From Candidatus Krumholzibacteriota bacterium (GTDB taxonomy: Bacteria; Krumholzibacteriota; Krumholzibacteriia; JAJRXK01): 53,954 nucleotides of DNA. Position numbers and translations under genes: made by a program. How positions within the stretch are numbered: the first letter of the stretch is position 1; each line of letters begins with the position of its first letter. Location of the stretch: positions 1-53,954 of the forward strand of contig JAJDAC010000038.1 of assembly GCA_029262065.1 (NCBI GenBank), written 5' to 3'. Positions 25,019 through 48,122 of the stretch are shown here, one piece after another. A model generated the notes under the pieces. The model saw only the letters and a list, made by a program, of their open reading frames with translations, was not told the origin of the DNA and did no database searches.

Positions 25019-26128
25019 CTAGGCCCCTGGCCAACTGAGCAGCGTGGACTCGTTGGCAGCATCGAAGAAATGCGCGTGGTCGAGGTCTGCGTGCAGATCG
25101 GCTTCCATCCCTGCACGCACTGCGTCCGAAGCTTCGACCCGGGCCACCCCCCGCGCCCCTTCTTTCGTGCGCCAGTACACCAGGGTCTCGCTACCGAGCG
25201 GTTCGACCACCTCGAGCGTCGTGGCGAGAGTTGCCCGAAGCCGTGATTGTGAAGGCCGAAGATGGATGTCCTCGGGCCGCAATCCAACCGTGAACGACTT
25301 GCCGTCGAGGGAACCAAGGTCAGAGGGAATGTCACCTTCAAGAGTGGTGGATTCGGCCTCCAGATCCAGTCGACGGTTCTCCAGGTCGAAGCGCGCGGAC
25401 CAGAGGTTGATGGGCGGACTGCCGAGGAACGAAGCGACGAATCGGTTGGTAGGGCGGTTGTACAGTTCCAGGGGGCCGTCGACCTGCTGGATCACGCCGT
25501 CACGCATGACGACGATGCGATCGCCCATGGTCATGGCTTCGGTCTGATCGTGCGTGACGTAGATCATGGTCGCGCGAAGATCACGATGTAGCTTGGCGAT
25601 TTCCGTACGCATTTCCACGCGCAGCTTCGCGTCGAGGTTGCTGAGTGGCTCGTCGAACAAGAAGACCTTGGGCCGGCGCACGATGGCGCGACCGAGGGCC
25701 ACGCGCTGGCGTTGACCGCCGCTTAGCTTGGCCGGACGCCGTTCCAACAGGGCCTCGATCCCCAGCAGGCGCGCCGCGTCCCTCACCCTCTCGCCCATCT
25801 CGGTCTTGTTCATGCGCCGGATCCGAAGCCCCATGGCCATGTTGTCGAATACGTTCATGTGCGGATACAGGGCGTAGTTCTGGAACACCATGGCGATATC
25901 GCGATCGCGCGGTGCGACCTCGTTCACGACCCGACCGTCGATGGAGATCGTCCCGGTGGTGACCGACTCGAGCCCGGCAATCATGCGCAGGAGGGTGGAC
26001 TTGCCGCATCCCGAGGGACCCACCAGTACCAGAAACTCCTCGTTGGCGACCGTGAAGCTCGCGTCGGTGACGGCCACGACATCCTTGTCATAGGTCTTGC
26101 CCACGCCCGACAGAGCTACTTCGGCCAT
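25019..26128 (-). CDS. ABC transporter ATP-binding protein, UgpC/MalK/MsmK type
   Basis: A 369-aa carbohydrate ABC ATPase. Walker A GPSGCGKST, Q-loop region AMVFQNYALYPHM, signature LSGGQRQRVALGRA, Walker B KVFLFDEPLSNLD and switch His in YVTHDQTEAMTM are all present. The C-terminal 130 residues match the TOBE/OB regulatory part (VGLRPEDIHL). It is the only ATPase near the binding protein and permeases at 31.8-34.8 kb, whose own operon lacks one, so it is the likely energy module of that importer. Start at MAEVALSG; an ATG 20 codons upstream gives a non-homologous tail. Divergent from the GH144 gene, sharing a 134-base intergenic region. Confidence 0.92.
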   Translation of the reverse strand: MAEVALSGVGKTYDKDVVAVTDASFTVANEEFLVLVGPSGCGKSTLLRMIAGLESVTTGTISIDGRVVNEVAPRDRDIAMVFQNYALYPHMNVFDNMAMGLRIRRMNKTEMGERVRDAARLLGIEALLERRPAKLSGGQRQRVALGRAIVRRPKVFLFDEPLSNLDAKLRVEMRTEIAKLHRDLRATMIYVTHDQTEAMTMGDRIVVMRDGVIQQVDGPLELYNRPTNRFVASFLGSPPINLWSARFDLENRRLDLEAESTTLEGDIPSDLGSLDGKSFTVGLRPEDIHLRPSQSRLRATLATTLEVVEPLGSETLVYWRTKEGARGVARVEASDAVRAGMEADLHADLDHAHFFDAANESTLLSWPGA

Positions 26129-26262
26129 GTTAGTATCCCGTGGAAGAGTTGGGTCAGTCGAACTGCCCGAGTGTGACGGGGAGAACATTCGCGGTCAACG
26201 TCGGGTTCCATCGGCCTTTTTGCCGATGATGCTCGGCGGACTGCAATTTCCGGAGATGTTGT

Positions 26263-27717
26263 ATGCGTTGTTCTGGTCGCGTTTGCCCGTGGATTCCTGT
26301 GTTGCGGTTCATATGCCTGGGCGCCTTGCTGGTGGTGGGATGCGCGGCTGCTTCAGAAGTGCCGCAACCCGAGGCCGGCACTGAAAAACACAGTGATTTT
26401 CTCGACACGTTGCAGCACCGGACGTTCGGGTACTTCTGGGATCTAAGCCATCCTGAAACGGGGCTCTCCCCCGATCGATTTCCCACCGAGTCCTTTGCCA
26501 GCGTGGCGGCCACGGGTTTCGCACTGACGGCCTATCCCATTGGCGTGGAGCGTGGCTACATAACCCGCGAAGAAGCTCGGGCTCGCGTCACGCGGACCCT
26601 TCGCTTTCTGTGGAACGGCACCCAGGGCGAGGATCCCTCCGGCAGCATGGGATATCGGGGGTTCTTCTACCATTTTCTGGATCCCGCCACGGGAAATCGA
26701 TTCGGCGAAGTCGAGTTGTCTACCGTGGATACCGCGTTGTTGTTGGCGGGTGCATTGTTCTGTCAGTCGTACTTCGATCGCGCGCACGCCGAAGAGGTTG
26801 CCATTCGCGAGTTGGTGGAAAAGCTCTACCTGCGCGTTGACTGGAAGTGGGCGTCCGTGCGGCCGCCGGCAGTTTCCCACGGTTGGAATCCCGAGGTGGG
26901 CTTTCTCCCCTACGACTGGCGGGGCTACAACGAGGCGATGATCCTCTACCTGCTGGCCCTGGCCTCCCCGACGCATCCTGTCGACGATTCCGCCTGGGAC
27001 GAGTGGACCTCCCGCTACGAGTGGGGTGAATACCACGGCTACGAGTTTCTGGGTTTTGGTCCGCTGTTCGGTCATCAGTATACCCACCTGTTCATCGACT
27101 TCCGTGGAATCCAGGACGCGGTCATGCGCGAGCGCGGCCTGGACTACTTCGAAAACTCCCGGCGTGCGCTTTTGGCGCAACGCGCCTATGCCATCGAGAA
27201 TCCCATGCAGTGGCGTGGCTACGGCGAGAATCTCTGGGGGCTGACCGCTTGCGATGGCCCGGTCAATCAGGAGCTGGTGATCGATGGCAAGAAGCGCGTG
27301 TTCCAGACCTATTGGGCGCGTGGAACTTCGTTCGCGGGGACCGCTGACGATGGGACCATCGCACCCACGGCCATTGGTGGCGCGATTGCGTTCGATCCCG
27401 AAACCGTCCTTCCGACCCTGATCTCCATGAAGGAGACCTACGGCGAACTCCTGTTCTCGAAGTACGGGTTCCTGGACGCGCTGAATCCCACGCTTACGGC
27501 GCAGGTTCCCGTTCAGCACGGACGCGTTGATCCGAAGATGGGATGGTTCGACACCGACTACCTGGGTATCGATCAGGGACCGATTCTGGCCATGGCCGAG
27601 AACCATCGCTCTGGTCTGGTGTGGGAGACGCTCTCACGCAACCCGCACATCATTCGCGGCCTGCGTCGGGCCGGCTTTCAAGGCGGTTGGCTCGATGATG
27701 CTCCGGAGTCACCGTGA
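26263..27717 (+). CDS. GH144-type endo-beta-1,2-glucanase-like lipoprotein (Glycoamylase family, PF10091)
   Basis: A 484-aa lipoprotein: lipobox LVVGC with the modified Cys at residue 27. The rest is an alpha/alpha-toroid 'putative glucoamylase' domain, the family that holds GH144 endo-beta-1,2-glucanases: LDTLQHRTFGYFWDLSHPET, SVAATGFALTA, GYRGFFYHFLDP, ELSTVDTALLLAGAL, YNEAMILYLLALASP, GPLFGHQYTHLFIDFRGI, NLWGLTACDGP and YLGIDQGPI. It hydrolyses beta-1,2-glucan to sophoro-oligosaccharides if function follows family. The lipid anchor and lack of a sorting domain place it at the periplasmic face of a membrane, unlike its paralog at 48143. Start has GGAG 8 bases upstream. Convergent with the GH94 gene 18 bases away. 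Confidence 0.85.
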   Translation: MRCSGRVCPWIPVLRFICLGALLVVGCAAASEVPQPEAGTEKHSDFLDTLQHRTFGYFWDLSHPETGLSPDRFPTESFASVAATGFALTAYPIGVERGYITREEARARVTRTLRFLWNGTQGEDPSGSMGYRGFFYHFLDPATGNRFGEVELSTVDTALLLAGALFCQSYFDRAHAEEVAIRELVEKLYLRVDWKWASVRPPAVSHGWNPEVGFLPYDWRGYNEAMILYLLALASPTHPVDDSAWDEWTSRYEWGEYHGYEFLGFGPLFGHQYTHLFIDFRGIQDAVMRERGLDYFENSRRALLAQRAYAIENPMQWRGYGENLWGLTACDGPVNQELVIDGKKRVFQTYWARGTSFAGTADDGTIAPTAIGGAIAFDPETVLPTLISMKETYGELLFSKYGFLDALNPTLTAQVPVQHGRVDPKMGWFDTDYLGIDQGPILAMAENHRSGLVWETLSRNPHIIRGLRRAGFQGGWLDDAPESP

Positions 27718-27735: not shown

Positions 27736-30700
27736 TCATTGCCCCTCGCGCGATCCCAGGATGAGAAGGATGTGATGGCGTGCACCATCGGTGGGAACGG
27801 GGGCGATGCAGGTTCCCGCTTCCACGGCGAGAGGTTGGCCGTCGAGCGAAGCCGCCACCACGTGCTTGGCCTGTTGGTTGGGATTTGTGGCCTCAATGAC
27901 AACTGGTTCCTGCGCACCCCGTAGTCTCAACTCCAGGGTAAACCCAGGCCATTCGTCGGGAATGCACGGCTTGATCAGGAACGTATCGCCGCCCCGCATT
28001 CTCAGTCCCAGCAACGATTCCACCACGGCCCGAAGCATCCATCCGGAAGAACCGGTATACCAGCTCCAGCCGCCGCGTCCGATGTGGGGTTCGGTCCCCG
28101 CGACGTCGGCCGCCACGACATAGGGTTCCAGACCATAGATAGAGATCGCTTCCGCGCTGTCGGTATGGGCTCGGGGCGTCAGCATTTCGAGGTACCGGGC
28201 GACCCTGTGGTTCTGACCAAGCTCGGCCAGGGCCATGACCACCCACAAGGCGGCGTGGGTGTACTGTCCCCCATTCTCGCGAACCCCCGGGACATAGCCG
28301 CGGATGTACCCCGGATCGTGTGGCGTGTGCTCGAACGGCGGCGTGAGCAGGCGAATCAGACCGGCGCGTTCATCGATGAGATGCTCTTCGACCGAAGCCA
28401 CCGCCCGCAGAGATCTTTCGGGCGGTGCTATCTTCGAAAGCACGGCCCACGCCTGGGTCAGCGCGTCGATGCGGCACTCGGCACTTTCACTGGAACCCAA
28501 CGGTTCTCCGTTGTCATAGTAGCCGCGGCGGTACCACGCTCCATCCCACGCTTCGTTCACCGCGCCGACCATATCGTCGTAGTACGCCTGATAGCTGCGA
28601 ATCCGATCCTCGTCGCCGCGGGCGTCACAGAAGGGCAGGAATGAGGCGATCGTGGTGTAGAGAAACTGACCGAGCCAGACGCTTTCGCCTCGACCTTCAC
28701 GGCCGACGCGATTCATGCCGTCGTTCCAGTCGCCGGTGCCAAACAGGGGAAGGCCATGTGACCCCCGCGTAAGCGAACGATCGAGTGCTCGACAGCAGTG
28801 CTCGTACACGGAGGCCGACTGCGACGAAACACGCGGGTACATGTAGGCCTCGTCCTCGCCGGGCTTCAGCGGCCGGGCCGTCATGAAGGGCACGATCTCA
28901 TCAAGGACGGCGGTATCGCCGGTGGTTTCCACGTAGGTGGCCACGATGTAGGGGAGCCACAACAGATCGTCGGCGAAACGCGTCCGGATTCCCTCGCTCG
29001 TGGGTGGGTGCCACCAGTGAAGCACGTCGCCCTCTTCGAACTGATGCGACGCGTGCAGAAGGATCTGGCGGCGGGTGAGTTCTGGTGCAACCAGAAACAG
29101 GGCCGACACGTCCTGGAGTTGATCGCGAAACCCAAACGCTCCGCCCGACTGGTAGAACGCGGTTCGTCCCCACAGCCGACACGACAGCGTCTGATACAGA
29201 AGCCATCCGTTCACCGTCTGGTTCAGCGCGGTTGACGGTGTATCGATGCGAATCGTGTTGAGGGTCCGATCCCAGAAAGAACGAGCGTTGTTCCATTCGC
29301 CGTCGAGGGCGTCGGGCCGCGCGAGTCCATCAATGGTCTGATGGACTTCGTCCACCGACGCGCCCTCTCCCAGAACGAAATAGGCCTGTGCCGTGGCGCC
29401 GGGGGCAATTTCCACCGACAGTTGCCAGGCCATGCACGGGTCGAGTGCAGTTCCATCGTTGCAGTCCAGCGGCAGCGATTGCGAAATCGCCAGGGGGTTG
29501 GCCGCCGATCGGCCTCGGCCTATGAAGGTCGCCCGATCGCACGTGTAGTGAACCGCGGTTGCCTGCGGACCCGCCCAGGCGGTAGCGAAGGCAACACGGG
29601 ATTGGAACGGTCCCGACAGTCTGTTTCGGGCGAGGATGGCTCCGCAGACCGGGTCGAATTCGGTGGCTACGAACCGCCCCGCCGATGGCCGATCGGTGCC
29701 GAGCAACAACTCGCAGTAGGAAAACAGCGAAAGTCGCCGAGTGGACGTTCCCTGGTTGGTGACCGACAACGCGACCACCTTGAACCCTTCGGTTCTGGCG
29801 CCGAACATGATCGTGTCGTGCACAAGTGAGCGTCCCGAATGGCGAAAGCGGCTGAACCCGAAGCCGTGCTCGACCTGGTAGTCGCCCGGAAGTGGGCACG
29901 GCCCTGGTAATGGCGACCACGACTCTCCGCTGGCGTCGTCGCGCACGTAGAGTGCCTCTGAATGCGGATCCAGCAGCGAGTCGTTGTTCCACGGGGTCAA
30001 ACGATGGGTACGACTGTTGATGCTCCACGTACTACTGGCGCCGGTCTCGCTGACGAGGAATCCGAAGTGTTCGTTGGCGATGACGTTGACCCATGGCCGC
30101 GGCGGCAGCGAAGGGTCGGGTCCTGCCGGACGCACCGTGAGCCGGAAGGACGACGGGCGACGGTCGGACGGCTCGTCGTTGGATTCGTCCCAAAGTGCCT
30201 GCGCGCTGGCGCGTCGCACCGGGAGCAGCGCATCCACCGCCGCCAGTTCCACGCGTGGTTTCCGGAGTCTGGCCAAGACGGGCCATTCATCTTGAATCAC
30301 CAGGTGCGCGCACGCGTGCAGAAGATCGAACTGGGTTGGCGTAAGCCCAGATGCCTGGATGATCTGAGCCACGTGGGGCGTCGCCGGTGACGAGCCCGCC
30401 GGCGACGAGGCAACCGGCGACGAGGCCGCCGGCTCGGCGGTGCTGTCGAGAACGACGATGTCAATGGGGACGCAATGCCACCGCCAGTAGCGGGACATCC
30501 TTGCCACTCGCGACCCGTGCGCCAGATCTTCGGGCGTTGACGCATGAACCAGAGCGAATCTTCGATTCTCCGATAGGCCGAATTCCTGCAACCCACGGAC
30601 ATCACCCACGGCACGACGCAGTGTCTGCGCGCTGGTCCGCAATGCCGGATGACCGTACATGGCGTGCCAGGCCAGCTCTTGCAGATACTTGGCTTCGTCG

Positions 30701-31626
30701 GTGTCGATCTCCAGCTCACGCAAAACGACTCGTTCGCGATCCTGGGCGCGATCGAACTCCGTGGCCAGGTCCGGTTTCTTCGCCAGATCATCCAGCCGGC
30801 GTTCAGCCTCCAATCGATCGGCGGCGGCTCCCAGCACGAACGTGATCTGCCTGGTCGAATGCGGCGCGACTTCGACCGTGGATCGCAAGCAGAGAATGGG
30901 ATCCAGCACGTTTCCGGTCGTGTTCGAAAGCGGGGCGTTTCCGATCAGGGCGCGGGGCGACAACCGCGAAAACCCTCGACCCACGAACTCAACCCGGCTC
31001 GACTCCCAAGCTTCAACGGGAGCGTCAAGAATCGCGTGCAGTACGAAGGGATTCTGTTCGCCGGCCGAGCGCGGCCGTCGCTGGGCGTACAACGCCCCGC
31101 GTTCGGAGTCATACGAGGTCTGGAGGAAGAGTTTGGAAAATTCTGGATGCGCGGCGTAGGCAGCGGGATCGGACAGCACGAGTTCGCACCAGCTCGTGAC
31201 TTCGAAGCGTCGGATCCGGTCCGACGAATTGACCAAACGGATGCGTCGCAACTCCATTGGTTGATCAGCCAGGACGCACGTTTCGAGTTCTGTATCGATT
31301 CCGTGCGCACTTCGCTGCGACTTGATTACGCCGGGAGACCAGTGGTGACGAGTGGTTCCCTCGAAGGGCTCTGACAAGGAGTAGGGGGTGGTATGGTAGG
31401 CGCCCGTTTCGAGATCGCGCACGAAGAACATGAGTCCGGTATCGTCTTCGACCGGGTCGGCCGACCATCGCGTCAGGTGCAACCCGTCGAACGACGAGTG
31501 ACCCGTCCCTTCACGACCAATCGAAACCGAGTAGCGGCCGTTGGTGAGTGACCACATCTGCGGCGTGGGACTCAGCGCGGACTCGATCTTGTATCCGTCT
31601 GGATCTGTTTTCACTGAACACTCCAT
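27736..31626 (-). CDS. GH94 glycoside phosphorylase, probable 1,2-beta-oligoglucan phosphorylase
   Basis: A 1296-aa protein with no signal peptide, so cytoplasmic. The C-terminal half has the GH94 catalytic barrel: GDWNDGMN with the predicted general acid Asp near residue 969, GAFGFRDQLQD, HWWHPPTSEGIRTRFADDLLWLP-type loop (residues about 880-900), ENGGQYTHAALWV, GRGGWSWYTGSSGWMLR. The N-terminal half contains two repeated beta-sandwich/linker regions, giving a size well above cellobiose phosphorylases (about 800 aa) and close to 1,2-beta-oligoglucan phosphorylases. Such enzymes split sophoro-oligosaccharides with phosphate to give glucose-1-phosphate. Flanking GH144 and ABC genes support this substrate. 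Divergent from the binding-protein gene. Confidence 0.85.
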   Translation of the reverse strand: MECSVKTDPDGYKIESALSPTPQMWSLTNGRYSVSIGREGTGHSSFDGLHLTRWSADPVEDDTGLMFFVRDLETGAYHTTPYSLSEPFEGTTRHHWSPGVIKSQRSAHGIDTELETCVLADQPMELRRIRLVNSSDRIRRFEVTSWCELVLSDPAAYAAHPEFSKLFLQTSYDSERGALYAQRRPRSAGEQNPFVLHAILDAPVEAWESSRVEFVGRGFSRLSPRALIGNAPLSNTTGNVLDPILCLRSTVEVAPHSTRQITFVLGAAADRLEAERRLDDLAKKPDLATEFDRAQDRERVVLRELEIDTDEAKYLQELAWHAMYGHPALRTSAQTLRRAVGDVRGLQEFGLSENRRFALVHASTPEDLAHGSRVARMSRYWRWHCVPIDIVVLDSTAEPAASSPVASSPAGSSPATPHVAQIIQASGLTPTQFDLLHACAHLVIQDEWPVLARLRKPRVELAAVDALLPVRRASAQALWDESNDEPSDRRPSSFRLTVRPAGPDPSLPPRPWVNVIANEHFGFLVSETGASSTWSINSRTHRLTPWNNDSLLDPHSEALYVRDDASGESWSPLPGPCPLPGDYQVEHGFGFSRFRHSGRSLVHDTIMFGARTEGFKVVALSVTNQGTSTRRLSLFSYCELLLGTDRPSAGRFVATEFDPVCGAILARNRLSGPFQSRVAFATAWAGPQATAVHYTCDRATFIGRGRSAANPLAISQSLPLDCNDGTALDPCMAWQLSVEIAPGATAQAYFVLGEGASVDEVHQTIDGLARPDALDGEWNNARSFWDRTLNTIRIDTPSTALNQTVNGWLLYQTLSCRLWGRTAFYQSGGAFGFRDQLQDVSALFLVAPELTRRQILLHASHQFEEGDVLHWWHPPTSEGIRTRFADDLLWLPYIVATYVETTGDTAVLDEIVPFMTARPLKPGEDEAYMYPRVSSQSASVYEHCCRALDRSLTRGSHGLPLFGTGDWNDGMNRVGREGRGESVWLGQFLYTTIASFLPFCDARGDEDRIRSYQAYYDDMVGAVNEAWDGAWYRRGYYDNGEPLGSSESAECRIDALTQAWAVLSKIAPPERSLRAVASVEEHLIDERAGLIRLLTPPFEHTPHDPGYIRGYVPGVRENGGQYTHAALWVVMALAELGQNHRVARYLEMLTPRAHTDSAEAISIYGLEPYVVAADVAGTEPHIGRGGWSWYTGSSGWMLRAVVESLLGLRMRGGDTFLIKPCIPDEWPGFTLELRLRGAQEPVVIEATNPNQQAKHVVAASLDGQPLAVEAGTCIAPVPTDGARHHILLILGSREGQ
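30383..30433. repeat. 15-bp in-frame tandem repeat inside the GH94 gene
   Basis: Units GCCGGTGACGAGCCC, GCCGGCGACGAGGCA and ACCGGCGACGAGGCC (30383..30427) plus a partial fourth encode an SSPVA/SSPAG-type linker (coding strand: ..ASSPVASSPAGSSPAT..) between conserved parts of the N-terminal half. It looks like a recent expansion in a surface loop. Confidence 0.85.
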
Positions 31627-31742: not shown

Positions 31743-31817
31743 TTGACACTCGATGTCACCCGTGCCAACGTTGCCACCGGTTGTTGTTCCAGGTCTGGTG
31801 TTACATATCGTGAAACA
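31743..31817 (+). promoter_or_regulatory. Putative promoter/operator region for the ABC importer operon
   Basis: TTGACA at 31743..31748, then TGCCAACGTTGCCA (31763..31776), a dyad around CAACGTTG, and a second imperfect dyad TGTTACA-N5-TGAAACA (31799..31817) just at the likely translation start. LacI-family operators have a central CG in such dyads, so the first may bind the regulator at 38188. No good -10 is seen. An exact 12-bp doublet (ACGTGTCGCCGG at 31710..31721 and 31722..31733) lies just upstream. Assignment is tentative. Confidence 0.35.
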
Positions 31818-33108
31818 CATCTTCGCACTTCGATGGCTCTGGTTCTCGATGCTGTTCGGCGCGGGAGCATTGGGATGCGTCGGGGGTGGTTCCGAGGAAA
31901 CGACAGTGGTCCGCTTCTGGGCCATGGGTCGCGAGGGCGAAGTCGTCGAAGAACTGTTGGAGGAATTCGAGCGGCAACATCCACGGATCCGGGTCGACGT
32001 GCAACAACTCCCCTGGTCCGCCGCCCACGAGAAACTCCTTACCGCGTTCGTGGGTCGCTCGACCCCCGATCTTGCCCAACTGGGAAACACCTGGGTATCC
32101 GAGTTCGCGGCGCTCGAAGCACTGGAACCGCTGGACGAGTGGATCGAAGGGGCGCTGGAGCCCGAAAGCTACTTCGCGGGCATCTGGGATACCAACGTCA
32201 TCGACGACGTTCTCTTTGGAATTCCGTGGTACGTAGACACGCGGATGCTCTTCTACCGTAAGGATCTACTTGCGCAGGCCGGCCACGCCACGATGCCCGG
32301 GTCGTGGCCAGGTTGGCGGCAGGCAATGGAAGACGTGAAAGAGATTCAGGGGCCAGACCGCTACGCGATCCTACTTCCGGTGAATGAGTGGACGCAGGCT
32401 GTCATTCTGGGTTTGCAGGCGGGCTCGGGCTTGTTGGCCGACAACAACACCCGTGGCGCGTTCGCCGAGCCACCGTTTCGTCGGGCGCTACAGTTCTACG
32501 TGGATCTGTTCCGCGCCGGGCTGGCGCCACCGGTAAGCAACAATGAAGTGGCGAACCTTTACCAGGAGTTCGCCCGCGGCTACTTCGCCATGTACATAAC
32601 AGGACCGTGGAACCTGGGCGAGTTCGAGCGACGATTGCCAGCCAGCATGGCCGACCAGTGGGGTGTCGCGCCGTTGCCGGGCCCCAACGGCCGCAGTGAT
32701 GGAGTTTCGTTGGCCGGTGGTGCCAGCCTTGTAATGTTTCGTTCTTCCGAACACAAGGCCGCCGCCTGGGAGGTGGTTCGCTTCCTTTCCGCTCCAAAAC
32801 AGCAGGTTCGTTTCTTTGAACTCATGGGCAACCTGCCGGCGCGTCGCGAGGCCTGGCAGGATTCCAGCCTTACGCGCGATAGTCGCGTGGCGGCGTTTGC
32901 CGATCAACTCGACCGGGTGGTTGCGACGCCCAAGATTCCGGAATGGGAACTCATTGCAACGCGGGTGCAGGAGCACGTGGAACATGCGCTCCGGGGCACG
33001 ACGCCAGTCGACAGTGTTTTGGTGCGCTTGGATGCTGAGGTGTCGAAGCTTCTCGAGAAGCGGCGCTGGTTGCTGGCGCGCTCGCAAGCCGATGCGGGTC
33101 GGCCGTGA
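31810..33108 (+). CDS. ABC transporter sugar-binding lipoprotein (CUT1 family)
   Basis: A 432-aa solute-binding protein of the family-1 type: mature start near TTVVRFWAMG, then LLEEFERQHPRIRVDVQQLPW, PDLAQLGNTWVSEFAALEAL, PWYVDTRMLFYRKDLL, YFAMYITGPWNLGEF and a C-terminal ALRGTTPVDSVLVRLDAEV. A hydrophobic leader ends in GALGC, a plausible lipobox. The start is uncertain: GTG at 31810 gives a normal leader, an ATG at 31753 gives a longer one, and neither has a clear Shine-Dalgarno site. Its stop overlaps the permease start. From the neighbouring GH144 and GH94 genes the ligand is probably a sophoro-oligosaccharide. Confidence 0.88.
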   Translation: MKHIFALRWLWFSMLFGAGALGCVGGGSEETTVVRFWAMGREGEVVEELLEEFERQHPRIRVDVQQLPWSAAHEKLLTAFVGRSTPDLAQLGNTWVSEFAALEALEPLDEWIEGALEPESYFAGIWDTNVIDDVLFGIPWYVDTRMLFYRKDLLAQAGHATMPGSWPGWRQAMEDVKEIQGPDRYAILLPVNEWTQAVILGLQAGSGLLADNNTRGAFAEPPFRRALQFYVDLFRAGLAPPVSNNEVANLYQEFARGYFAMYITGPWNLGEFERRLPASMADQWGVAPLPGPNGRSDGVSLAGGASLVMFRSSEHKAAAWEVVRFLSAPKQQVRFFELMGNLPARREAWQDSSLTRDSRVAAFADQLDRVVATPKIPEWELIATRVQEHVEHALRGTTPVDSVLVRLDAEVSKLLEKRRWLLARSQADAGRP

Positions 33109-33986
33109 GCCTGGAACGCGAGCAGGCCAAGGCGGCGCGGTGGTTTCTGACCCCCGCCCTGCTTCTCATCGGCATGTTCTTCTTCCTGCCGGTTGTCGCG
33201 GGCTTGCTGCTGAGTTTCACCGACTTCGATATCTACGCGGTCGCCTCTCCGGATCGGGTCCGATTCGTGGGTTGGCGCAACTACGCCGATCTGTTGGAGT
33301 CGGACACGTTCTGGAGCGCGGTTCGCAACACGCTCTATTTCGTGTTGGTCGGAGCTCCACTCTCGGTGCTGGTTTCGTTGGCCACCGCACTTCTGGTCAA
33401 CACCCCCGGTGTGAAACTCCAGGGTCTATTCCGCACCATCTACTTTGCTCCGGTGGTTACACCGTTGGTCGCGGTGGCCATCGTCTGGCGTTACCTGTAC
33501 CACCCGCGGTACGGCCTGCTGAATCATTGGATGGAAGCAGTGGGGATCGATGCCATCGACTGGCTTGGCGATCCCCGATGGTCGATGCCCGCGATCATCC
33601 TGCTCGCCGTGTGGAAGAACTTTGGCTACAACATGATCATCTTCGTGGCCGGACTCCAGGCGATCCCCCGCGAACTCTACGAGGCAGCTTCGGTGGACGG
33701 CGCCGGACCTTGGTGGCGGTTTCGCTACATTACCGCTCCGTCGCTGGGACCCGCGTTCCTGTTCGTGGGAATCACCACGATGGTGGGGTTCTTCCAGCTG
33801 TTCGCGGAACCGTACGTGATGACCCAGGGCGGGCCACTGGGCAGTACCAGAAGCCTCCTGCTGTTGATGTATGAAGAGGGATTCCGTTGGTGGCGGTTGG
33901 GCGTGGCGTCGACCGTGGCCGTGTTGTTGTTCGGCTTCACGTTGGCGGGGACACTCCTTCAACTGCGGTTCTCGCGAGGTAGATGA
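33105..33986 (+). CDS. ABC sugar permease, MalF/UgpA type
   Basis: A 293-aa inner-membrane permease with six predicted helices and the EAA loop YEAASVDGAGPWWRFRYIT .. P near residues 188-215, which contacts the ATPase. The GTG start at 33105 overlaps the binding-protein stop (GTGA), and its end overlaps the next permease (ATGA), so the three are translationally coupled. It pairs with the 33983 permease to form the translocation channel of the importer. Confidence 0.92.
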   Translation: MSLEREQAKAARWFLTPALLLIGMFFFLPVVAGLLLSFTDFDIYAVASPDRVRFVGWRNYADLLESDTFWSAVRNTLYFVLVGAPLSVLVSLATALLVNTPGVKLQGLFRTIYFAPVVTPLVAVAIVWRYLYHPRYGLLNHWMEAVGIDAIDWLGDPRWSMPAIILLAVWKNFGYNMIIFVAGLQAIPRELYEAASVDGAGPWWRFRYITAPSLGPAFLFVGITTMVGFFQLFAEPYVMTQGGPLGSTRSLLLLMYEEGFRWWRLGVASTVAVLLFGFTLAGTLLQLRFSRGR

Positions 33987-34806: not shown

Positions 34807-37800
34807 ATGTGGTCACGCGCCGTGCTCTTGACCATTGGCCTGGGCGTGGCCTGGGCTCTGGTGGCGAATGCGGCCGGGCCGGAGGGTCGCGTCAGTGTGA
34901 GCGAATGTGAGGATCTGGCGGCGTGGACGGCAATTCCGGCCGACGGCGTCTCGTTGGATCTCTCACTCGACGATGGGATCGACGGTCGGGCTCTGCGACT
35001 GGACTTTGATATTCCCGGCGGTGGTTACGCGGTGGCTCGCACCGAAGTCGATCTTCTGCTACCCGAGAACTATGTCTTTCGGTTCTCCGTTCGCGGCAAC
35101 GCACCCGTGAACCACCTCGAGTTCAAGGTCATAGACGAGGTGGGGGACAGCGTGTGGTGGTCGGTTCGACGCGACTTCGTGTTCCCGCGCGAATGGAAGC
35201 GCTTGTCCATCAAGAAGCGGCATCTCGATTTCGCCTGGGGACCCAAGGGCGGCGGCGATATCCACCGCGTTTCCGCCATCGAGTTTGCGGTAACCGCGGG
35301 TAGCGGCGGCAGCGGGCAGGTCTGGATCGACCAGATCGAGTTGGTTCCGTTGGCGGCGGCACGGGAAATTCCGGCCGATCTTCTGGTGCGCGCGTCGACG
35401 GAAGATCCGGCCCATGCAGCCGCCTTGGCCGTCGATGGCAACCTGAACACCGCGTGGGAACCTCGCCAGGAATCCAGTCCGTGGCTTTCGGTTGATCTGG
35501 GTTCCAGCACCGAATACAGCGCTCTGTACCTGACATGGGTCGATGGCCGGCACGCGACGGACTATGTGGTCGAGACATCCGAAGATGGGTTGGTCTGGGT
35601 CACCCTGCGTGAGGTGTCCGGAGCCGACGGCGGTTTCGATCCACTTCATTTGCCGGAGTCGTCATCGCGGTTCGTTCGTCTCCGTGTTCTGCGCGCCTTT
35701 GGTACCGAACCCGTAGCGCTAGCCGAAATGCTCTTGCAGCCGGTCGACTGGGCGGAGTCCAGGGTCGCGTTCTTCGAGCGGCTGGCGACGCGCGTCCCGC
35801 GCGGCCACGTTCCCCGCGGCATGCTGGGCGAACAGGCGTACTGGACGGTGGTGGGGATCGACGCCGATCCGCGAGAGGCGTTGCTGGGCGAAGACGGCGC
35901 CCTGGAGTTCGGCGCTGGACTGGGCTCGATCGAACCGTTCCTGCACGACGGGGAGCGACTGTTCACCTGGGCCGACGGTCGCATCGACCAGACGCTGGCC
36001 GAGGGATACCTGCCGATTCCCACGGTGCGATGGCAGCTACCGGGCTGGGAGTTGCGCGAAACGGCATTTGCCACCGGGCGACCCGGAGCATCGTGGGTGG
36101 TGGTGCGGTATTCACTGACCAACCAGGGCAGCGAATCGGAGTCGATACGACTCGCGCTGGCACTTCGTCCGTACCAGGTGAATCCGCCCAGTCAGACGCT
36201 GAACCTGCAGGGAGGCATTTCCTCTGTTCATGCCATTGAGATGCGGGGCGATGACGTCTACGTAGACGGACAGCCGCGCGTGCGTTCGTTGCGGACCGCC
36301 GACGGATTCGGCGCCGCCAAGTTCGACGCGGGCGACATCGTGACCGGCTATCTTTCGCGCGGCCGATTGCCACAGACAAAAGAAGTGCGCGACGACTTCG
36401 GCGCCGCCTCGGCGGCCCTGGTATATGACCTCGAACTGCAGGCGGGGGCGACGGAGACGATCGACGTTCTGGTGCCGCTGTATCCAGAAGCTGGCTTTCC
36501 GCCCCTTTTGGAAACCGCGGCCAAGACCTGGGTGGACGATCGGCTGGCGCTTGCGCAACAGCGATGGAACGAGCGTGCGCACTCGGTGGAACTCCAGTTG
36601 CCGCCGGCCGCGCGCGAGATCGAAGAAACGTTCCGCGCACAGATCGGCTACATCCTGGTGAACCGGGCGGGCCCTGGCATTCAACCCGGCTGTCGATCGT
36701 ACGCGCGGTCGTGGATTCGCGACGGCGCGCTGACCTCCTGGGCCTTGTTGCGAACGGGACACGTTGCCCCGGCGCTCGAGTTCCTGAAGTGGTACGCACC
36801 CTTCCAGTACGAGAACGGCAAGATCCCGTGTGTGGTCGATGTTCGAGGGGCCGATCCTGTCGATGAGCACGATAGCACCGGCGAGTTCATCTTCCTGGTT
36901 CGCGAAGTCTATCGAGCTACGAACGACATGGCGTTGCTGCGCGAGATGTGGCCTGGGGTCGTGAACGGTATTGGCTACCTGGACTCGCTGCGCCAGCAGC
37001 GTCGTTCCCCGGAGTTCCGTAGCCGCGACCAGGCTCACTTCTACGGCCTGCTTCCCCCTTCCATCAGCCACGAGGGGTATTCGGCCAAACCGATGCACTC
37101 GTACTGGGACGACTTCTTCGCAGTGCGAGGTTTTCGCGACGCGGTGTTCTTGGCGAAGGAGCTGGGTGAGTTGGATGTGGCGGCCCGCTTCGAGATCATT
37201 CGTGACCAGTTCGAGGAAGATCTGTCGGCATCGGTGGCGGCGACGCTGCTCCATCACGGTATTGATTTTGTTCCCGGCTGCGCCGATCTGGGAGACTTCG
37301 ACGCAACCTCCACCACGATCGCGTTGACGCCGGCCGATGCCACGTCGCTGTTGCCGGCGGGCTCGGTTACGCGGACCTTCGAGCGATACTGGGAGTTCTT
37401 CGAGAACCGGCGCAGTGGGCGCGAGCCGTGGGACGCGTACACGCCCTACGAGTTGCGAACGGTGGGTACCTTCGTTCGGCTGGGTTGGCGGCAGCGCGCC
37501 CATGAACTGTTGGACTTCTTCCTCGAGGGCCGTCGTCCGGCTGGCTGGCGGCAGTGGCCGGAAGTGGTTCGTAGCGAACCCCGGCAAGCGGCGTTTCTCG
37601 GGGATCTGCCGCATACGTGGGTCGGATCGGACTACGTGCGATCGGTCCTGGACATGCTGGCGTACGCCAGCGACGACGCCCTCATACTCGCGGCCGGGAT
37701 TCCCGCCGCCTGGTTGGCCGCCCCCGGCGTGAAAGTCGGAAACCTCCCAACCCCGTATGGGGAATTGAGTTATACCGCAGCTCGCAGCGCCGATTCTACT

Positions 37801-37971
37801 CGGGTGGTCGTCGCCGGCGGCCTCGTGGTGCCTCCGAACGGCGTCGTCCTGGATCTTCCCCTGGCCGAACACCAACGGTCCGCCACCGTCAACGGTCAGC
37901 CCGCCAGCTGGAGCGACTCGGGCGGAATCCTGGTGTGGGATCTGCCGGCCACGGTGGTTGTAGGTCCCTGA
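34807..37971 (+). CDS. Secreted F5/8-type-C (CBM32-like) plus six-hairpin glycosidase-like protein, family unresolved
   Basis: A 1054-aa exported protein. A signal peptide (ending ANAAG) is followed by a beta-sandwich (about 20-180), an F5/8 type C domain (about 191-305: ALAVDGNLNTAWEP .. WLSVDLGSS .. YVVETSEDGLVW), a beta-supersandwich-like region (about 320-590) and an alpha/alpha-toroid domain from about 600 with RSYARSWIRDGALTSWALL, EHDSTGEFIFLVREVY, YWDDFFAVRGFRDA and GREPWDAYTPYELRT. The layout resembles GH15- and debranching-type enzymes, but I cannot place it in a GH family. ATG at 34807 has GAAGGG nine bases upstream; an ATG at 34798 overlaps the permease stop. It is probably a periplasmic or surface hydrolase for the same glucan. 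Confidence 0.75.
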   Translation: MWSRAVLLTIGLGVAWALVANAAGPEGRVSVSECEDLAAWTAIPADGVSLDLSLDDGIDGRALRLDFDIPGGGYAVARTEVDLLLPENYVFRFSVRGNAPVNHLEFKVIDEVGDSVWWSVRRDFVFPREWKRLSIKKRHLDFAWGPKGGGDIHRVSAIEFAVTAGSGGSGQVWIDQIELVPLAAAREIPADLLVRASTEDPAHAAALAVDGNLNTAWEPRQESSPWLSVDLGSSTEYSALYLTWVDGRHATDYVVETSEDGLVWVTLREVSGADGGFDPLHLPESSSRFVRLRVLRAFGTEPVALAEMLLQPVDWAESRVAFFERLATRVPRGHVPRGMLGEQAYWTVVGIDADPREALLGEDGALEFGAGLGSIEPFLHDGERLFTWADGRIDQTLAEGYLPIPTVRWQLPGWELRETAFATGRPGASWVVVRYSLTNQGSESESIRLALALRPYQVNPPSQTLNLQGGISSVHAIEMRGDDVYVDGQPRVRSLRTADGFGAAKFDAGDIVTGYLSRGRLPQTKEVRDDFGAASAALVYDLELQAGATETIDVLVPLYPEAGFPPLLETAAKTWVDDRLALAQQRWNERAHSVELQLPPAAREIEETFRAQIGYILVNRAGPGIQPGCRSYARSWIRDGALTSWALLRTGHVAPALEFLKWYAPFQYENGKIPCVVDVRGADPVDEHDSTGEFIFLVREVYRATNDMALLREMWPGVVNGIGYLDSLRQQRRSPEFRSRDQAHFYGLLPPSISHEGYSAKPMHSYWDDFFAVRGFRDAVFLAKELGELDVAARFEIIRDQFEEDLSASVAATLLHHGIDFVPGCADLGDFDATSTTIALTPADATSLLPAGSVTRTFERYWEFFENRRSGREPWDAYTPYELRTVGTFVRLGWRQRAHELLDFFLEGRRPAGWRQWPEVVRSEPRQAAFLGDLPHTWVGSDYVRSVLDMLAYASDDALILAAGIPAAWLAAPGVKVGNLPTPYGELSYTAARSADSTRVVVAGGLVVPPNGVVLDLPLAEHQRSATVNGQPASWSDSGGILVWDLPATVVVGP

Positions 37972-38187: not shown

Positions 38188-39261
38188 ATGGTGGCAACCA
38201 TTCGCGATGTAGCGAGCGCCGCCTCCGTGTCCATCGCGACCGTTTCGCGCGTGCTCAACGGAAGTCCTCGTGTCAGCGAGGATGCCCGCGAACGCGTCTG
38301 GGCCGCCGCCGACCAACTCGACTACTGGCCCAACACCGCAGCTCGCAGCCTCACGACCCAACGCACCCACGCACTGGGTGTTCTGCTCCCCGACCTGTTC
38401 GGCGAGTTCTTCTCCGAGGTCATCCGTGGCATCGACGAAGCGGCACGTGCCCAGAAACTACAGGTCCTGATTTCGAGTTCGCACGCCGACACGCAGGAAG
38501 TGTTGCTGGCTGCGCGTTCCATGCGCGGCCGGATCGACGGGTTGATAATCATGGCGCCCGACGAGGGTTCGATCGAACCCATTCAGCGAATCGCTCGGCG
38601 CTTTCCCGTGCTTCTGGTCAATCCGCCCTCGTCGGTCGATGGCTGCAGTTCGGTATCGGTGGACAACTTCGAGGGAGCTCGCGCCGTCGTCGAACATCTC
38701 CTGCAAAACGGCCACCGGGAGATTGCCATGGTCAGAGGGCCGGCCGGGAACGTGGATGCTGAAGATCGCTTCCGGGGCTACCGCGACGCACTCGCGGCGG
38801 CGGGTATCGAAGCTGAGTCGCGGCTGGAGATTGCCGGAGCATTCACCGAGACATCGGGTTTCCAGGCGGGCCTGGAACTCCTGTCCCTCAAGAACCGACC
38901 CACCGCCGTTTTCGCCGCCAATGATTCCATGGCCGTCGGACTCGTGAGTGCGCTGCGCAGCCGCGGGCTGCAGGTTCCTCGGGATCTTGCCGTCGTGGGG
39001 TTTGATGACATCGTCATCGCAAGCTACCTGAGCCCGGCGCTCACCACGGTTCATGTCGATGCCTACGAGCTGGGGCTTCGCGCCGTGAGGCTCTTGTTGC
39101 CAAGCCTGGAATCCCCTGGTTCGAGCGAACAGTGTCACGAGGTGCTTGCAGCCCCCGTCGTCGTCCGGGAGTCCTGTGGCTCATCGCAGTCACCCGCAAT
39201 GAAGTCCGAGTCAGGACGAGACAACAAAATCACTCAACGTGGGAGGAAAACCGGACCATGA
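38188..39261 (+). CDS. LacI-family transcriptional regulator
   Basis: A 357-aa regulator. The N-terminal helix-turn-helix TIRDVASAASVSIATVSRVL is followed by the hinge and a periplasmic-binding-protein-like sensor domain (LGVLLPDLFGEFFSEVIRG .. AVFAANDSMAVGLVSALRSR .. AVVGFDDI). ATG at 38188 with GGGAG just upstream. It should bind the operator at 38116 and release it when a sugar from the imported glucan is present. The stop overlaps the next ATG (ATGA), so the regulator heads the surface-protein operon; placing a repressor first suggests tight negative feedback. Confidence 0.94.
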   Translation: MVATIRDVASAASVSIATVSRVLNGSPRVSEDARERVWAAADQLDYWPNTAARSLTTQRTHALGVLLPDLFGEFFSEVIRGIDEAARAQKLQVLISSSHADTQEVLLAARSMRGRIDGLIIMAPDEGSIEPIQRIARRFPVLLVNPPSSVDGCSSVSVDNFEGARAVVEHLLQNGHREIAMVRGPAGNVDAEDRFRGYRDALAAAGIEAESRLEIAGAFTETSGFQAGLELLSLKNRPTAVFAANDSMAVGLVSALRSRGLQVPRDLAVVGFDDIVIASYLSPALTTVHVDAYELGLRAVRLLLPSLESPGSSEQCHEVLAAPVVVRESCGSSQSPAMKSESGRDNKITQRGRKTGP

Positions 39262-41152: not shown

Positions 41153-43822
41153 GTGTTGGAGTTTTCGCGACCGGCCTGGTTGGGTTTGTTGATCGGCGTC
41201 GCCCTCATGGGCGTCGCCTGCGATGCCTGGTCGGGAATCACGGGCAAGATCTCGGGAGTGGTGGTCGACGAGCACGACGCGCCGATCTTCGTGGTGGCGA
41301 TCGAACTCGTCGAGTTGCCCCACCTGGCCCTGACCAAGCAGGACGGCAGCTACGAGATCCTCAACGTGCCTCCTGGCACCTACGGCGTTCGCTTTCAGCG
41401 CCTGGGATTCGAGACGGTACTGGTGCAGAACGTCGTGGTTTCGTCCGACAACACGACGAAGATCAACACGAAGATGGTTCTGGATGTCCTCGAGATGGAC
41501 GAGATCGTGGTCCGGGCCCAGACCCCGCCCGTGGTTCTCGACCAGACCAGCACCCAGACGAATCTCTCGGCCGAGGAAATCGAGGACCTACCGGTGCAGG
41601 AGCTGGAGGACGTGGTCAACCTCCAGGCCGGGGTCGTGGACGGCCATTTTCGCGGTGGCCGAATCGGCGAGGTCCAGTTCCAGGTCGACGGTGTGAGCGT
41701 GAACAACCCGTTCGACAACAAATCGTCTCTGCGGCTGGACCGCTCGATCCTACAGGAGGTCCAGATCATCAGCGGGACCTTCGATGCCGAGTATGGGCAA
41801 GCCATGAGCGGAGTGGTCAACGCGGTCCTCAAGGACGGGACGCGCGAGTTCGAATGGAACGCCGAGGTGATCACCGGGACCTACCTGTTTCCGGGACACG
41901 CCGAGCGCCTCTTGAACGACACCATCCGTCCGGGCGGAATCCAGAACTATCAGTTGAGTCTGAGTGGCCCCTTGCCGATTCCTGACACGGTATTTCTGGT
42001 GAGTGGCCGCCGGAATTCGACCGACAGCCACATCTACGGCGAGCGTCGATTCGTGCCCACCGACGAATCGAATTTCGAAACCCGTGAATTCGTGCCCACG
42101 GGCGATGGCGCCGAAGTTCCACTGGGGTTCACCGAAGAGTGGTCCGGAGTGGTCAAGTTGACCAATCGATCGTGGGTCAACTCCCGCGCGAGCTACCAGG
42201 CCGTGGTCAACTCCATTGATAGCCGCGCCCCGAACTTCGCGTTCCGATTCAATCCCGATGGTTTGAGTACGCAGGAGACCTTCTCTATCGCGCACGGTCT
42301 GGACTGGACCCAGACGCTCAGCAACACCACGTTCATCGACTTCAGCGCGCGCCAGAACTACTTCAGGTACCGCGACGTTCGGTACGAGGACCCGTTCGAT
42401 TCGCGCTACGATGATGCCGGCCGCCCCGTCGCCGACGATGCCTACGAACTGGGCGCGATCGTGCAGGGCGTTTCACTCAATCGCTTCGAACAGACGACCG
42501 ACAGCTATCTTGTGAAGACGGTGCTTCGCAGCCAGGTCACGCCAGCGCATCTGGTGAGGTTCGGAGGTGAATTCCAGGTCTCGCAAGTGCAGTTTGGAAC
42601 TCCAGGCCATCTGACGTTCGTCACCGACACCAACGAAGAGGGGAATACGGTCGAGTTGCTCGATCGCAAGTTCGACGAACCGCCCGACTTTCTCGCCGTC
42701 AGCGAGTATCACCCCCGGGTGGCCGCCGCGTTCGTGCAGGATCGCATCGAGTTACCCGACATCACGGTGCGCGCGGGACTTCGCCTCGACTACTTCGACT
42801 CCAGGGCCACGCTTCCGAGTGACCTGCGCAATCCGGCCAACGCCATCGACGGCGCACCGGCATCGTTTCCCGTGTCGGCCTCGAGCAAGTGGGCGGTATC
42901 GCCACGATTGGGCGTGGCGTATCCCATCTTGAGCCACGCCGCCGTCCATTTTGCCTACGGCCACTTTCGGCAGTTCCCTCCCCTGCGCGACATCTTCACC
43001 AATGCCGACTACTCGGTGCTGGAGCGGCTGCAGGCCGGGCGCGATCCCGGCGTACTGGGCAACCCCGACGTAAAACCCGAGAAGACCGTGCAATACGAAA
43101 TCGGCTACAAGCAACTCGTATCGGATGATCTGGGTATCGACGTGACCGCGTTCTACAAGGACATCCGCGATCTCGTCGGCGTCGAGTTCATCACCACCTA
43201 CACCGGCGCCGAGTACGCGCGCTTGACGAACGTGGACTTCGGTAACGTTCTGGGCATCACGTTCTCTCTGGACCATCGCAGGTTGGGGCCGCTGCGGGTG
43301 TCGTTGGACTACACCTGGCAACAAGCGTTGGGAAATTCCAGCGATCCGCGCGAGACGGCTACGCGTGCCGAGGTCGGAGAGGATCCCCGTCCCCGGCTCC
43401 TTCCATTCAATTGGGACCAACGCCACACGCTCAACACCACACTCTCACTCGCGCACTCGGAGGCTTACTCAATGGGCGCCATCTTGCGCGTGGCGAGCGG
43501 TCAACCCTACACGCCGCTTACGGGCCTGGGTGGATACGGCAACGGCCTGGTCACCAACTCCGATCGCAAGCCGTTCGGTTGGCTCGTGGATCTACGGGCC
43601 GAGCGTCGGATCAAAGCCAAGGGAGCGCGCCTTGGTCTGTTCGCGCGCGTGTTCAACCTGTTCGACACGCGCTATTTCAACGGGCCGGTGTTTGCCAGCA
43701 CGGGCAGTGCTGACTACTCGCGCCTACCCAACGATGCCACCGCACTGCTCGATCCCACGCGGTTCTATCCGCCGCGAAGACTCGAAGTCGGAATACGCAT
43801 AGCCCCCGGAGGAGACAAGTGA
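41153..43822 (+). CDS. TonB-dependent receptor with carboxypeptidase-regulatory-like N-domain
   Basis: An 889-aa outer-membrane receptor. After a signal sequence (a Cys in GVACD could be lipidated) there is a carboxypeptidase-regulatory-like beta-sandwich (about 25-110, ISGVVVDEHDAPI .. QDGSYEILNVPPGTYGVRF), a plug (about 125-235, DLPVQELEDVVNLQAGVV .. QFQVDGVSVNNPF .. EVQIISGTFDAEYGQAMSGV) and a 22-strand-type barrel to the C-terminus (RLEVGIRIAPG). GTG start with GGAGAAGGA. It imports oligosaccharides across the outer membrane with TonB energy. No SusD homolog follows. Its stop overlaps the next gene. Confidence 0.92.
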   Translation: MLEFSRPAWLGLLIGVALMGVACDAWSGITGKISGVVVDEHDAPIFVVAIELVELPHLALTKQDGSYEILNVPPGTYGVRFQRLGFETVLVQNVVVSSDNTTKINTKMVLDVLEMDEIVVRAQTPPVVLDQTSTQTNLSAEEIEDLPVQELEDVVNLQAGVVDGHFRGGRIGEVQFQVDGVSVNNPFDNKSSLRLDRSILQEVQIISGTFDAEYGQAMSGVVNAVLKDGTREFEWNAEVITGTYLFPGHAERLLNDTIRPGGIQNYQLSLSGPLPIPDTVFLVSGRRNSTDSHIYGERRFVPTDESNFETREFVPTGDGAEVPLGFTEEWSGVVKLTNRSWVNSRASYQAVVNSIDSRAPNFAFRFNPDGLSTQETFSIAHGLDWTQTLSNTTFIDFSARQNYFRYRDVRYEDPFDSRYDDAGRPVADDAYELGAIVQGVSLNRFEQTTDSYLVKTVLRSQVTPAHLVRFGGEFQVSQVQFGTPGHLTFVTDTNEEGNTVELLDRKFDEPPDFLAVSEYHPRVAAAFVQDRIELPDITVRAGLRLDYFDSRATLPSDLRNPANAIDGAPASFPVSASSKWAVSPRLGVAYPILSHAAVHFAYGHFRQFPPLRDIFTNADYSVLERLQAGRDPGVLGNPDVKPEKTVQYEIGYKQLVSDDLGIDVTAFYKDIRDLVGVEFITTYTGAEYARLTNVDFGNVLGITFSLDHRRLGPLRVSLDYTWQQALGNSSDPRETATRAEVGEDPRPRLLPFNWDQRHTLNTTLSLAHSEAYSMGAILRVASGQPYTPLTGLGGYGNGLVTNSDRKPFGWLVDLRAERRIKAKGARLGLFARVFNLFDTRYFNGPVFASTGSADYSRLPNDATALLDPTRFYPPRRLEVGIRIAPGGDK

Positions 43823-47106: not shown

Positions 47107-48122
47107 TGGCTCAACGGTCGCTATTCCTGGGTGCGCTTCTTCTGGTGCTGGCTTCGGCACCCGCGGTGCACGCGCAAAGCAACACGGGCACCACCCTGGG
47201 AACGTTCCTCAAGATCGAAACGAGTGGTCGTAGCGCGGCCATGGGAAACGCCGGTGTCGCGCTGACGGGCGGCATTGAATCCGTCTACTTCAACCCCGCG
47301 GTCATCGGTTCCCTGCATCGCGTCACGGCGCAATTCAGTCATCTGTTCTGGTTCGCCGAGATCGAACTGGACTACGCCGCCCTGGCGATACCGATTCAGG
47401 GTTGGGGTACGTTCTTCGGTAGCGTTACTGCGCTGAACTCCGGCGATATCGACGTGCGAACGGTCAATGACCCCCTGGGAACCGGCGAGCGCTACAGCGT
47501 TTCCAATGTCAGCGTCAGCGTGGGCTTCGGCCGTCAGCTGAGCGATCGCTTTGCGCTCGGCGGCCAACTGAATTTCATCAACGAGCGCATATGGAACAGC
47601 TCGCACCACGCGGCGACCTTCAGCGTGGGAACCGTGTATCGTCTTACCGATGGCGGCATACGGCTGGGTTCTGGGCTTTCGAACCTCAGCACGCGGTCCC
47701 AGTTCGCGGGTCGGGACCTTGCCATCCAGTTCGACGGGAATCCGGGCGCCAACGGCGACAACAGTTCTCTTCCGGCCGACCAGTTCACCGGTGAGTTTGC
47801 CGTACCGCTGTTGTTCCGGATAGGCCTCGAGGTTCCGTACCAGGTCACGGCCAAGACCCGCGTTACGTTCCTGATCGACGCTTTGCACCCCAACGACAAT
47901 TCAGAGAGCCTGAACGTGGGTGGCGAGTGGTCGTTGGGCAGGGTGCTGTCCCTGCGCGGCGGCTATCAGGCCATGTTTCAGGACGACTCCGAGTTGGGTT
48001 GGACGTTCGGCTTCGGGCTTCGGCGCGATCGCCGCGATACCGACATGCGCATCGACTATGCCTGGGCCGGGCACGAAACCCTTGCTGCGACGCACCTGAT
48101 TTCGGTCGCGCTCGCGTTCTAG
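47106..48122 (+). CDS. PorV/PorQ-family outer-membrane protein
   Basis: A 338-aa protein with a signal peptide (ending VHAQS) and the PorV/PorQ hallmark just after it: TFLKIETSGRSAAMGNAGVA .. GGIESVYFNPA, then FSHLFWFAEIELDYAA and repeated barrel strands to a terminal aromatic (ALAF). In T9SS organisms PorV-type proteins bind C-terminal sorting domains at the surface. Its ATG overlaps the stop of a sorting-domain protein and it precedes a sorting-domain GH144, so it may be a locus-dedicated shuttle or anchor; that role is inference. Confidence 0.82.
   Translation: MAQRSLFLGALLLVLASAPAVHAQSNTGTTLGTFLKIETSGRSAAMGNAGVALTGGIESVYFNPAVIGSLHRVTAQFSHLFWFAEIELDYAALAIPIQGWGTFFGSVTALNSGDIDVRTVNDPLGTGERYSVSNVSVSVGFGRQLSDRFALGGQLNFINERIWNSSHHAATFSVGTVYRLTDGGIRLGSGLSNLSTRSQFAGRDLAIQFDGNPGANGDNSSLPADQFTGEFAVPLLFRIGLEVPYQVTAKTRVTFLIDALHPNDNSESLNVGGEWSLGRVLSLRGGYQAMFQDDSELGWTFGFGLRRDRRDTDMRIDYAWAGHETLAATHLISVALAF

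Follow-up and report, generated by a model that had tools for sequence, protein, structure and literature searches.

A secreted GH15-like protein encoded in a beta-1,2-glucan locus of a Candidatus Krumholzibacteriota bacterium

A 53,954-nucleotide stretch of contig JAJDAC010000038.1 from a Candidatus Krumholzibacteriota bacterium (the window) carries two GH144 genes, a sugar importer and, next to the importer, a gene for a large multidomain protein that we call P0001. What does such a protein contribute to the use of beta-1,2-glucan, a rare sugar polymer of bacteria? The enzymes known to act on this polymer cut or join beta-1,2 bonds, or close the ring by an alpha-1,6 bond. The original prediction, made from the sequence alone, took P0001 for a secreted, multidomain, glycosidase-like protein that fits no glycoside hydrolase (GH) family that could be named. 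The results below indicate that it is very probably a GH15-like hydrolase of beta-1,2-glucan catabolism. The fuller description, a secreted, exo-acting, inverting GH15-like hydrolase (clan GH-L type architecture) of an uncharacterised family, dedicated to environmental beta-1,2-glucan and with a terminal alpha-linked glucosyl residue as candidate substrate, is put forward as evenly balanced between right and wrong.

Fold, profile matches and catalytic residues

Sixty-five aligned homologs, 36-55% identical, were used for profile matching and for scoring invariance, and an AlphaFold2 model of P0001 built on 65 aligned homologs reached a predicted local distance difference test (pLDDT) score of 92.0 and a predicted template modelling (pTM) score of 0.90. 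The six-hairpin toroid that had been predicted is present in this model, with helices spanning residues 600-951. The predicted F5/8-C carbohydrate-binding-like domain is likewise real: PF00754 scored 59 bits against a cut-off of 28.2 over residues 195-300, which identifies a CBM32/F5-8C domain, and the domain superposed on the CBM32 of a glucanase/chitosanase (4zz5) with Z 21.2. In front of it lies an extra domain that the original prediction did not contain. Residues 28-182 matched CtCBM11 (6r31) with Z 18.7 and a root-mean-square deviation (rmsd) of 2.2 over 151 aligned residues (VIA), and gave a sequence match to CBM11 1v0a by hmmsearch (E 0.0026) and no Pfam match.

The best fold match to P0001, in VIA and in Foldseek, was the GH15 enzyme dextran dextrinase (9ju0; Z 31.6, rmsd 3.7, 552 aligned residues, 13% identity). 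Further GH15 matches were the isomaltose glucohydrolase of Kribbella flavida, KfGH15 (5z3a-e; Z about 29.8, 315 aligned residues), a bacterial glucoamylase (1lf6; Z 29.1) and a glucodextranase (1ug9; Z 28.8). Together these matches (Z 28.8-31.6) cover residues 343-958, a supersandwich followed by a toroid as in bacterial GH15, at 12-14% identity. Outside GH15, the GH65 alpha-1,2-glucosidase 7fe3 gave Z 28.7, GH116 beta-glucosidases Z 28.4 and the GH94 phosphorylase SOGP (5h3z) Z 25.6. With 7fe3 and GH116 P0001 has the fold in common; it is set apart from them by a larger rmsd (4.4-5.6) and the absence of a profile match.

Profile comparisons pointed the same way, at a distance. TIGR01577 (GH15 oligosaccharide amylase) matched all 65 members (best 1.2e-13), far below its 820.7-bit cut-off, and P0001 alone scored 21.8 bits. 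PF00723, with a cut-off of 22 bits, weakly matched 17 of the 65 (best E 1.9e-4) and gave nothing at E<=1 in P0001 itself; TreH1 (GH15 trehalase) matched 36. Weak matches to the GH78 six-hairpin model PF17389 were obtained for 54 members, P0001 scoring 14.3 bits against a cut-off of 24.5, and 19 members weakly matched GDE_C; sub-threshold GH95 matches were seen as well. A PDB search with the catalytic profile returned KfGH15 at E 0.11 only. Aligned by hhalign with a single GH15 sequence, the family gave a probability of 0.5; a GH15 profile was needed for a match. None of the Pfam and NCBIfam catalytic models reached its curated cut-off in P0001, so the claim that the protein fits no nameable GH family holds, and no confident match to a characterised family appeared, with GH15 identity at 12-14% and curated scores distant. 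On these profile scores P0001 is a distant branch near GH15 that lies outside GH15 by curated cut-offs, because no named family cut-off was reached.

Two other affiliations were considered and rejected. The original prediction had grouped the toroid with those of recent beta-1,2-glucanases (GH144, GH162 and GH192-194; clan GH-S). P0001 shares with GH144 and its clan (XcSGL, CpSGL; GH162, GH192-194) the pathway, a neighbouring gene and the (alpha/alpha)6 toroid, but PF10091 (GH144) did not match P0001 at E<=1 and is not one of the families that the 65 members hit, and the chain has an added supersandwich and beta-cap, with GH15 as the nearest fold among the matches listed. The 50 fold matches listed (VIA-align) contained no GH144/GH162-type toroid, a listing that does not exclude one. 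The missing profile match and the GH15 fold speak against membership of the GH144/GH162 clan. What stands of the original prediction is therefore the novelty and the pathway; the proposed kinship gives way, by fold and profile, to GH15. A GH94-type phosphorylase was also rejected: the GH94 models PF17167 and PF06165 matched neither P0001 nor appeared among the families of the 65 members, and single-sequence hhalign to the GH94 protein of the window was weak (probability 5.3). P0001 resembles the GH94 SOGP/CGS phosphorylases in its supersandwich, toroid and cap and in its pathway, and differs from them in being secreted, in having a base Glu and in lacking a profile match.

The two motifs named earlier, SWIRDGALTSW and EHDSTGEF, were located in the toroid (Table 1), and R638, D639, E687 and D689 are invariant across the 65 homologs. 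E756, D768, D769 and E919 are invariant down to methanotroph homologs of 31-34% identity, as are D639, E687, D689, D830, D832 and D933. Conservation of the acidic residues in the toroid had been proposed as a check, and no loss was observed. When the toroid profile was aligned by hhalign with GH15 from its own genome and from plasmids (91.8%, E 7.5e-7; one target), SWIRDG paired with the GH15 W-x-R-D motif, WPEVV with LPEQV, and LPHTWVGSDYV with the next helix. Glu919 falls on the GH15 base Glu in two profile alignments. By the printed alignment the LPEQ Glu is E636 of 1lf6, the general base of that enzyme, and this makes Glu919 its predicted counterpart. Judged by alignment, Glu919 is the residue that corresponds to the GH15 general base, in an LPEQ-like motif between the last toroid helices. 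P0001 is thus like GH15 in its supersandwich and (alpha/alpha)6 toroid, its W-x-R-D motif and the place of its base Glu; it is unlike GH15 in having CBM11-like and CBM32-like domains in front, in its beta-1,2-glucan locus and in its acid region, which reads SHEGYS...YWDD instead of WEE. No WEE occurs in P0001, and hhalign leaves a gap at the GH15 general-acid region. In the model, the helix at residues 766-785 is preceded by the invariant SISHEGYSAKPMHSYWDD, and the WEE of GH15 lies several residues before its own helix. Counted from the helix, Glu756 is closer to the GH15 acid position than Asp768, which sits in the first helix turn, and Glu756 (or Asp768) is the likely general acid.

The base Glu also bears on a very improbable alternative, that P0001 is a transglycosylase or phosphorylase reshaping Sop_n before import. 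The protein nearest to it in fold, dextran dextrinase, belongs to the glucosyltransferases of GH15; loci of this kind are known to encode a GH35 beta-1,2-glucosyltransferase (PMC8861115), and GH35 genes were found among the neighbours. The retained base Glu makes a phosphorylase unlikely, and transfer would serve no obvious purpose in a secreted enzyme; because that Glu is present, P0001 appears to be built as a hydrolase.

Association with beta-1,2-glucan loci

A scan of genomes for homolog loci was evaluated for the best 80 of 283, all of them found through the P0001-type gene. The records were labelled Krumholzibacteriota, Gemmatimonadota, Acidobacteria, Proteobacteria, Ignavibacteria, Bacteroidetes, Phycisphaerae and others. 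GH144 was present in 56 of the 58 loci with at least 4.5 kb upstream, and the complete cassette of GH144, solute-binding protein (SBP) and two permeases in 45; these counts strongly support the association with beta-1,2-glucan claimed earlier. Where 5 kb downstream was available (n = 59), GH1 occurred in 39 loci and GH94 in 26. Bacteroidales loci keep GH144, the homolog, GH35 and SOGP, with a transporter of the major facilitator superfamily, and divergent homologs with other transporters sit near an SOGP-type phosphorylase. The gene order in Xanthomonas sacchari is LacI-TonB-GH144-SBP-permease-permease-homolog, followed by Entner-Doudoroff genes. A broken homolog in this species was considered and rejected, as its open frame, 1169 codons long, is intact. 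That frame (locus L099, about 11533-15000, X. sacchari plasmid) is missing from the distributed PLSDB gene table, which is incomplete. The homolog of Methylosinus, whose N-terminus marks it as cytoplasmic, adjoins an SOGP-domain phosphorylase and GH15. On the plasmid of Methylosinus sp. C49 (locus L100, 4445-12418), GH15, an SOGP-type phosphorylase and the signal-less homolog form a compact cluster next to an ABC transporter and may represent a form of the system that works in the cytoplasm.

Within the window, the first GH144 gene is closely homologous to XCC2207, a proven beta-1,2-glucanase (PMC12102758), and the SBP is a relative of Lin1841, the Sop-binding protein of Listeria (PMC8861115, PMC12369401). 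A widespread, conserved and unassigned GH15-like gene shares an operon with a close homolog of a proven beta-1,2-glucanase, Xanthomonas included. No MdoG gene was found in the organism's own genome, nor any PF10091 gene beyond the two in the window; neither known route of beta-1,2-glucan synthesis is therefore represented, and the organism is a consumer. The P0001 gene is present in this genome as a single copy, and a GH1 gene is also present.

Among 28 related genomes, all seven with a strong GH144 pair have the gene, which occurs in 8 genomes in total (p about 7e-6 for co-occurrence, by simple counting that ignores relatedness). Since the loci had been found through the P0001-type gene, the converse was checked as well, and the GH144 genes of rhizobial, Sphingomonas and Spirosoma plasmids have no homolog nearby. 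This makes the link one-way: the gene implies use of beta-1,2-glucan, and use does not need the gene. Such a one-way link would suit an enzyme that handles a feature peculiar to certain glucans.

No paper was found in open-licence literature on the homologs, whose NCBI annotation is 'discoidin domain-containing protein' and nothing more; the portions seen of papers from the beta-1,2-glucan field do not name the gene.

Candidate substrate and mechanism

Non-reducing-end attack on the glucan, proposed earlier, would be consistent with the GH15-type pocket of the model. In the mechanism that we favour, GH144 cleaves the beta-1,2 backbone, and before import P0001 would trim the resulting fragments from the non-reducing end, either in the periplasm or outside. 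The two N-terminal CBM-like domains may hold the glucan. In subsite -1 the W-x-R-D motif would bind the terminal glucose; Glu756 (or Asp768) would protonate the leaving group and Glu919 would activate water. The SBP and two permeases would then import the remainder for phosphorolysis (GH94) or hydrolysis by beta-glucosidase (GH1/GH3).

P0001 probably cuts a linkage beyond the reach of the known enzymes of the pathway. GH144, GH94, GH1 and GH3 cover the beta-1,2 bonds, and several of the nearest GH15 folds act on alpha-1,6 linkages; for these reasons a terminal alpha-linked glucosyl group is the candidate substrate that we favour, for example the alpha-1,6 link once the ring of a cyclised glucan has been cut and trimmed. 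An alpha linkage has about an even chance of being correct, and alpha-1,6 in particular is a tentative assignment. Beta-1,2-glucans cyclised by alpha-1,6 bonds, with degrees of polymerisation of 13, 16 and 18, come from Ralstonia, Xanthomonas and Cereibacter (PMC11842490), and the ring-closing enzyme is the GH186 protein XccOpgD (PMC11228985). No described enzyme acting on this alpha-1,6 bond was found in the literature. That P0001 stands for a new family within the GH15-like superfamily, one that hydrolyses the alpha-1,6 link of these osmoregulated periplasmic glucans (OPGs), is tentative at best. If true, it would bring a new family and a new activity, the gene would mark consumers of alpha-1,6-cyclised glucans, and alpha-1,6 cleavage would let other bacteria digest host-interaction glucans completely.

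Several points weigh against the favoured reading. The structural Z values of the GH15, GH65 and GH116 matches are only about 1-3 apart. The loop carrying E756 is modelled with modest confidence (pLDDT 62 for 751-760), and the alignment of E756 to the GH15 acid falls below residue certainty. Kinship to GH15 leaves the specificity for the anomer unfixed, and GH94 enzymes of related fold act on beta-linkages. An exo enzyme would reach the alpha-1,6 bond only after the ring has been cut and its non-reducing side trimmed, and the alpha-1,6 idea is drawn from the substrate chemistry of Xanthomonas, Ralstonia and Cereibacter (PMC11842490), not from the locus in the window. The gene is also dispensable for use of beta-1,2-glucan, since GH144 loci without it exist.

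The main rival, and a serious one, is an inverting exo-beta-1,2-glucosidase (or sophorose-releasing exo-enzyme) of the same fold that would bind the sugar the other way round, as GH94 does, and attack linear beta-1,2-glucan or Sop_n from the non-reducing end. The rest of the locus consists of beta-1,2 enzymes, GH94 phosphorylases prove that the fold handles beta-glucosides (5h3z, above), and GH94 is second to dextran dextrinase in Foldseek. We rate this as less likely than the favoured reading: the profiles favour GH15 and GH15 trehalase, GH94 is absent among the families of the 65 members, and most loci already have GH1 or GH3 to act as exo-beta-glucosidase. Removal from beta-1,2-glucans of a side group that is not glucose or is linked in another way, such as a beta-1,6-glucosyl branch (as in enterobacterial-type OPGs) or another alpha-hexosyl decoration, would suit the exo-pocket architecture, the sub-threshold GH78, GDE_C and GH95 matches beside GH15 and the accessory, non-obligatory distribution among GH144 loci. 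No direct sign of any decoration was seen, however, and a W-x-R-D motif with a base Glu is typical of glucose-specific GH15, which leaves this explanation improbable.

Gene start, neighbouring genes and other observations

The reading frame of P0001 has no internal stops. Its ATG lies behind AAGGG, 9 nt upstream, and a 5-nt gap separates the gene from the stop of the upstream permease; a start at a further in-frame ATG, at 34798, would share the bases ATGA with that stop. These features make the translational linkage to the importer that had been claimed reasonable. Secretion, as predicted, is supported by a probable signal peptide read by eye.

Table 1. Features of P0001 and its locus in the window, with the basis of each assignment
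Feature	Position	Strand	Basis
P0001 gene, GH15-like product, 1054 aa, secreted, multidomain	34807..37971	+	translation
Probable signal peptide, residues 1-23 (MWSRAVLLTIGLGVAWALVANAA)	34807..34875	+	by eye; pLDDT low for 1-26
Domain 1, CBM11-like beta-sandwich, residues 28-182	34888..35352	+	structure match, weak sequence match
Domain 2, F5/8 type C, CBM32-like, residues 183-312	35353..35742	+	PF00754, fold match
Supersandwich, about residues 327-590	35785..36576	+	model beta-strands; GH15 N-terminal domains align from residue 343
(alpha/alpha)6 toroid, about residues 596-960	36592..37686	+	model; KfGH15 Z about 29.8 over 596-952
SWIRDGALTSW, residues 635-645; W636-x-R638-D639, counterpart of GH15 W-x-R-D	36709..36741	+	hhalign; invariant
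EHDSTGEF, residues 687-694; E687, D689 invariant	36865..36888	+	homolog alignment
Family signature SISHEGYSAKPMHSYWDDF, residues 752-770; E756 (favoured general acid), D768/D769	37060..37116	+	invariant columns; putative acid role
Glu919 (WPEVV), counterpart of general-base Glu in GH15 LPEQ	37561..37563	+	hhalign; invariant
C-terminal beta-cap, residues 961-1054	37687..37968	+	model
MalK-type ATPase	25019..26188	-	
GH144 gene, close homolog of XCC2207 (XcSGL)	26263..27717	+	541.9 bits to 8xul; PF10091
GH94 enzyme, nearest phosphorylase domain of cyclic beta-1,2-glucan synthase (CGS)	27736..31626	-	783 bits to 8rf9
ABC solute-binding protein, relative of Xanthomonas 3uor and Lin1841	31753..33108	+	452 and 198 bits
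ABC permease, MalF type	33105..33986	+	PF00528
ABC permease, MalG type, stop 5 nt before P0001 gene	33983..34801	+	PF00528
LacI-family regulator, start codon upstream, open reading frame from 38086	38212..39261	+	
TonB-dependent receptor	41153..43822	+	
Second GH144 gene, tail of type IX secretion system (T9SS)/FlgD-like type	47927..49759	+	407 bits to 8xul

Other genes were noted around the glucan locus. At 43819-47106 (+) a 1095-residue protein with no Pfam domain and a FlgD/PorZ-like tail is encoded; its homolog (1331 bits) adjoins GH144 in an Ignavibacteriales locus (L064), and the product may be a conserved outer-surface part of glucan loci. The gene at 39255-41141 (+) encodes a secreted CBM9-like protein that has two parts and a weak sorting tail; its homologs occur in loci L018, L019, L021, L024 and L087 of the same cluster. 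PhoP and low osmotic stress co-regulate two genes, one of them for the TonB-type receptor XAC2312 (PMC9108719); judged by its locus number, XAC2312 may belong to the copy of the locus in Xanthomonas citri. Farther upstream in the window, 15326-22003 (+) holds two adjoining genes whose products, both long and secreted, combine a trypsin-like peptidase domain with a P-domain and a FlgD-like tail, and 12784-15207 (-) holds a gene for a family B DNA polymerase of 807 residues.

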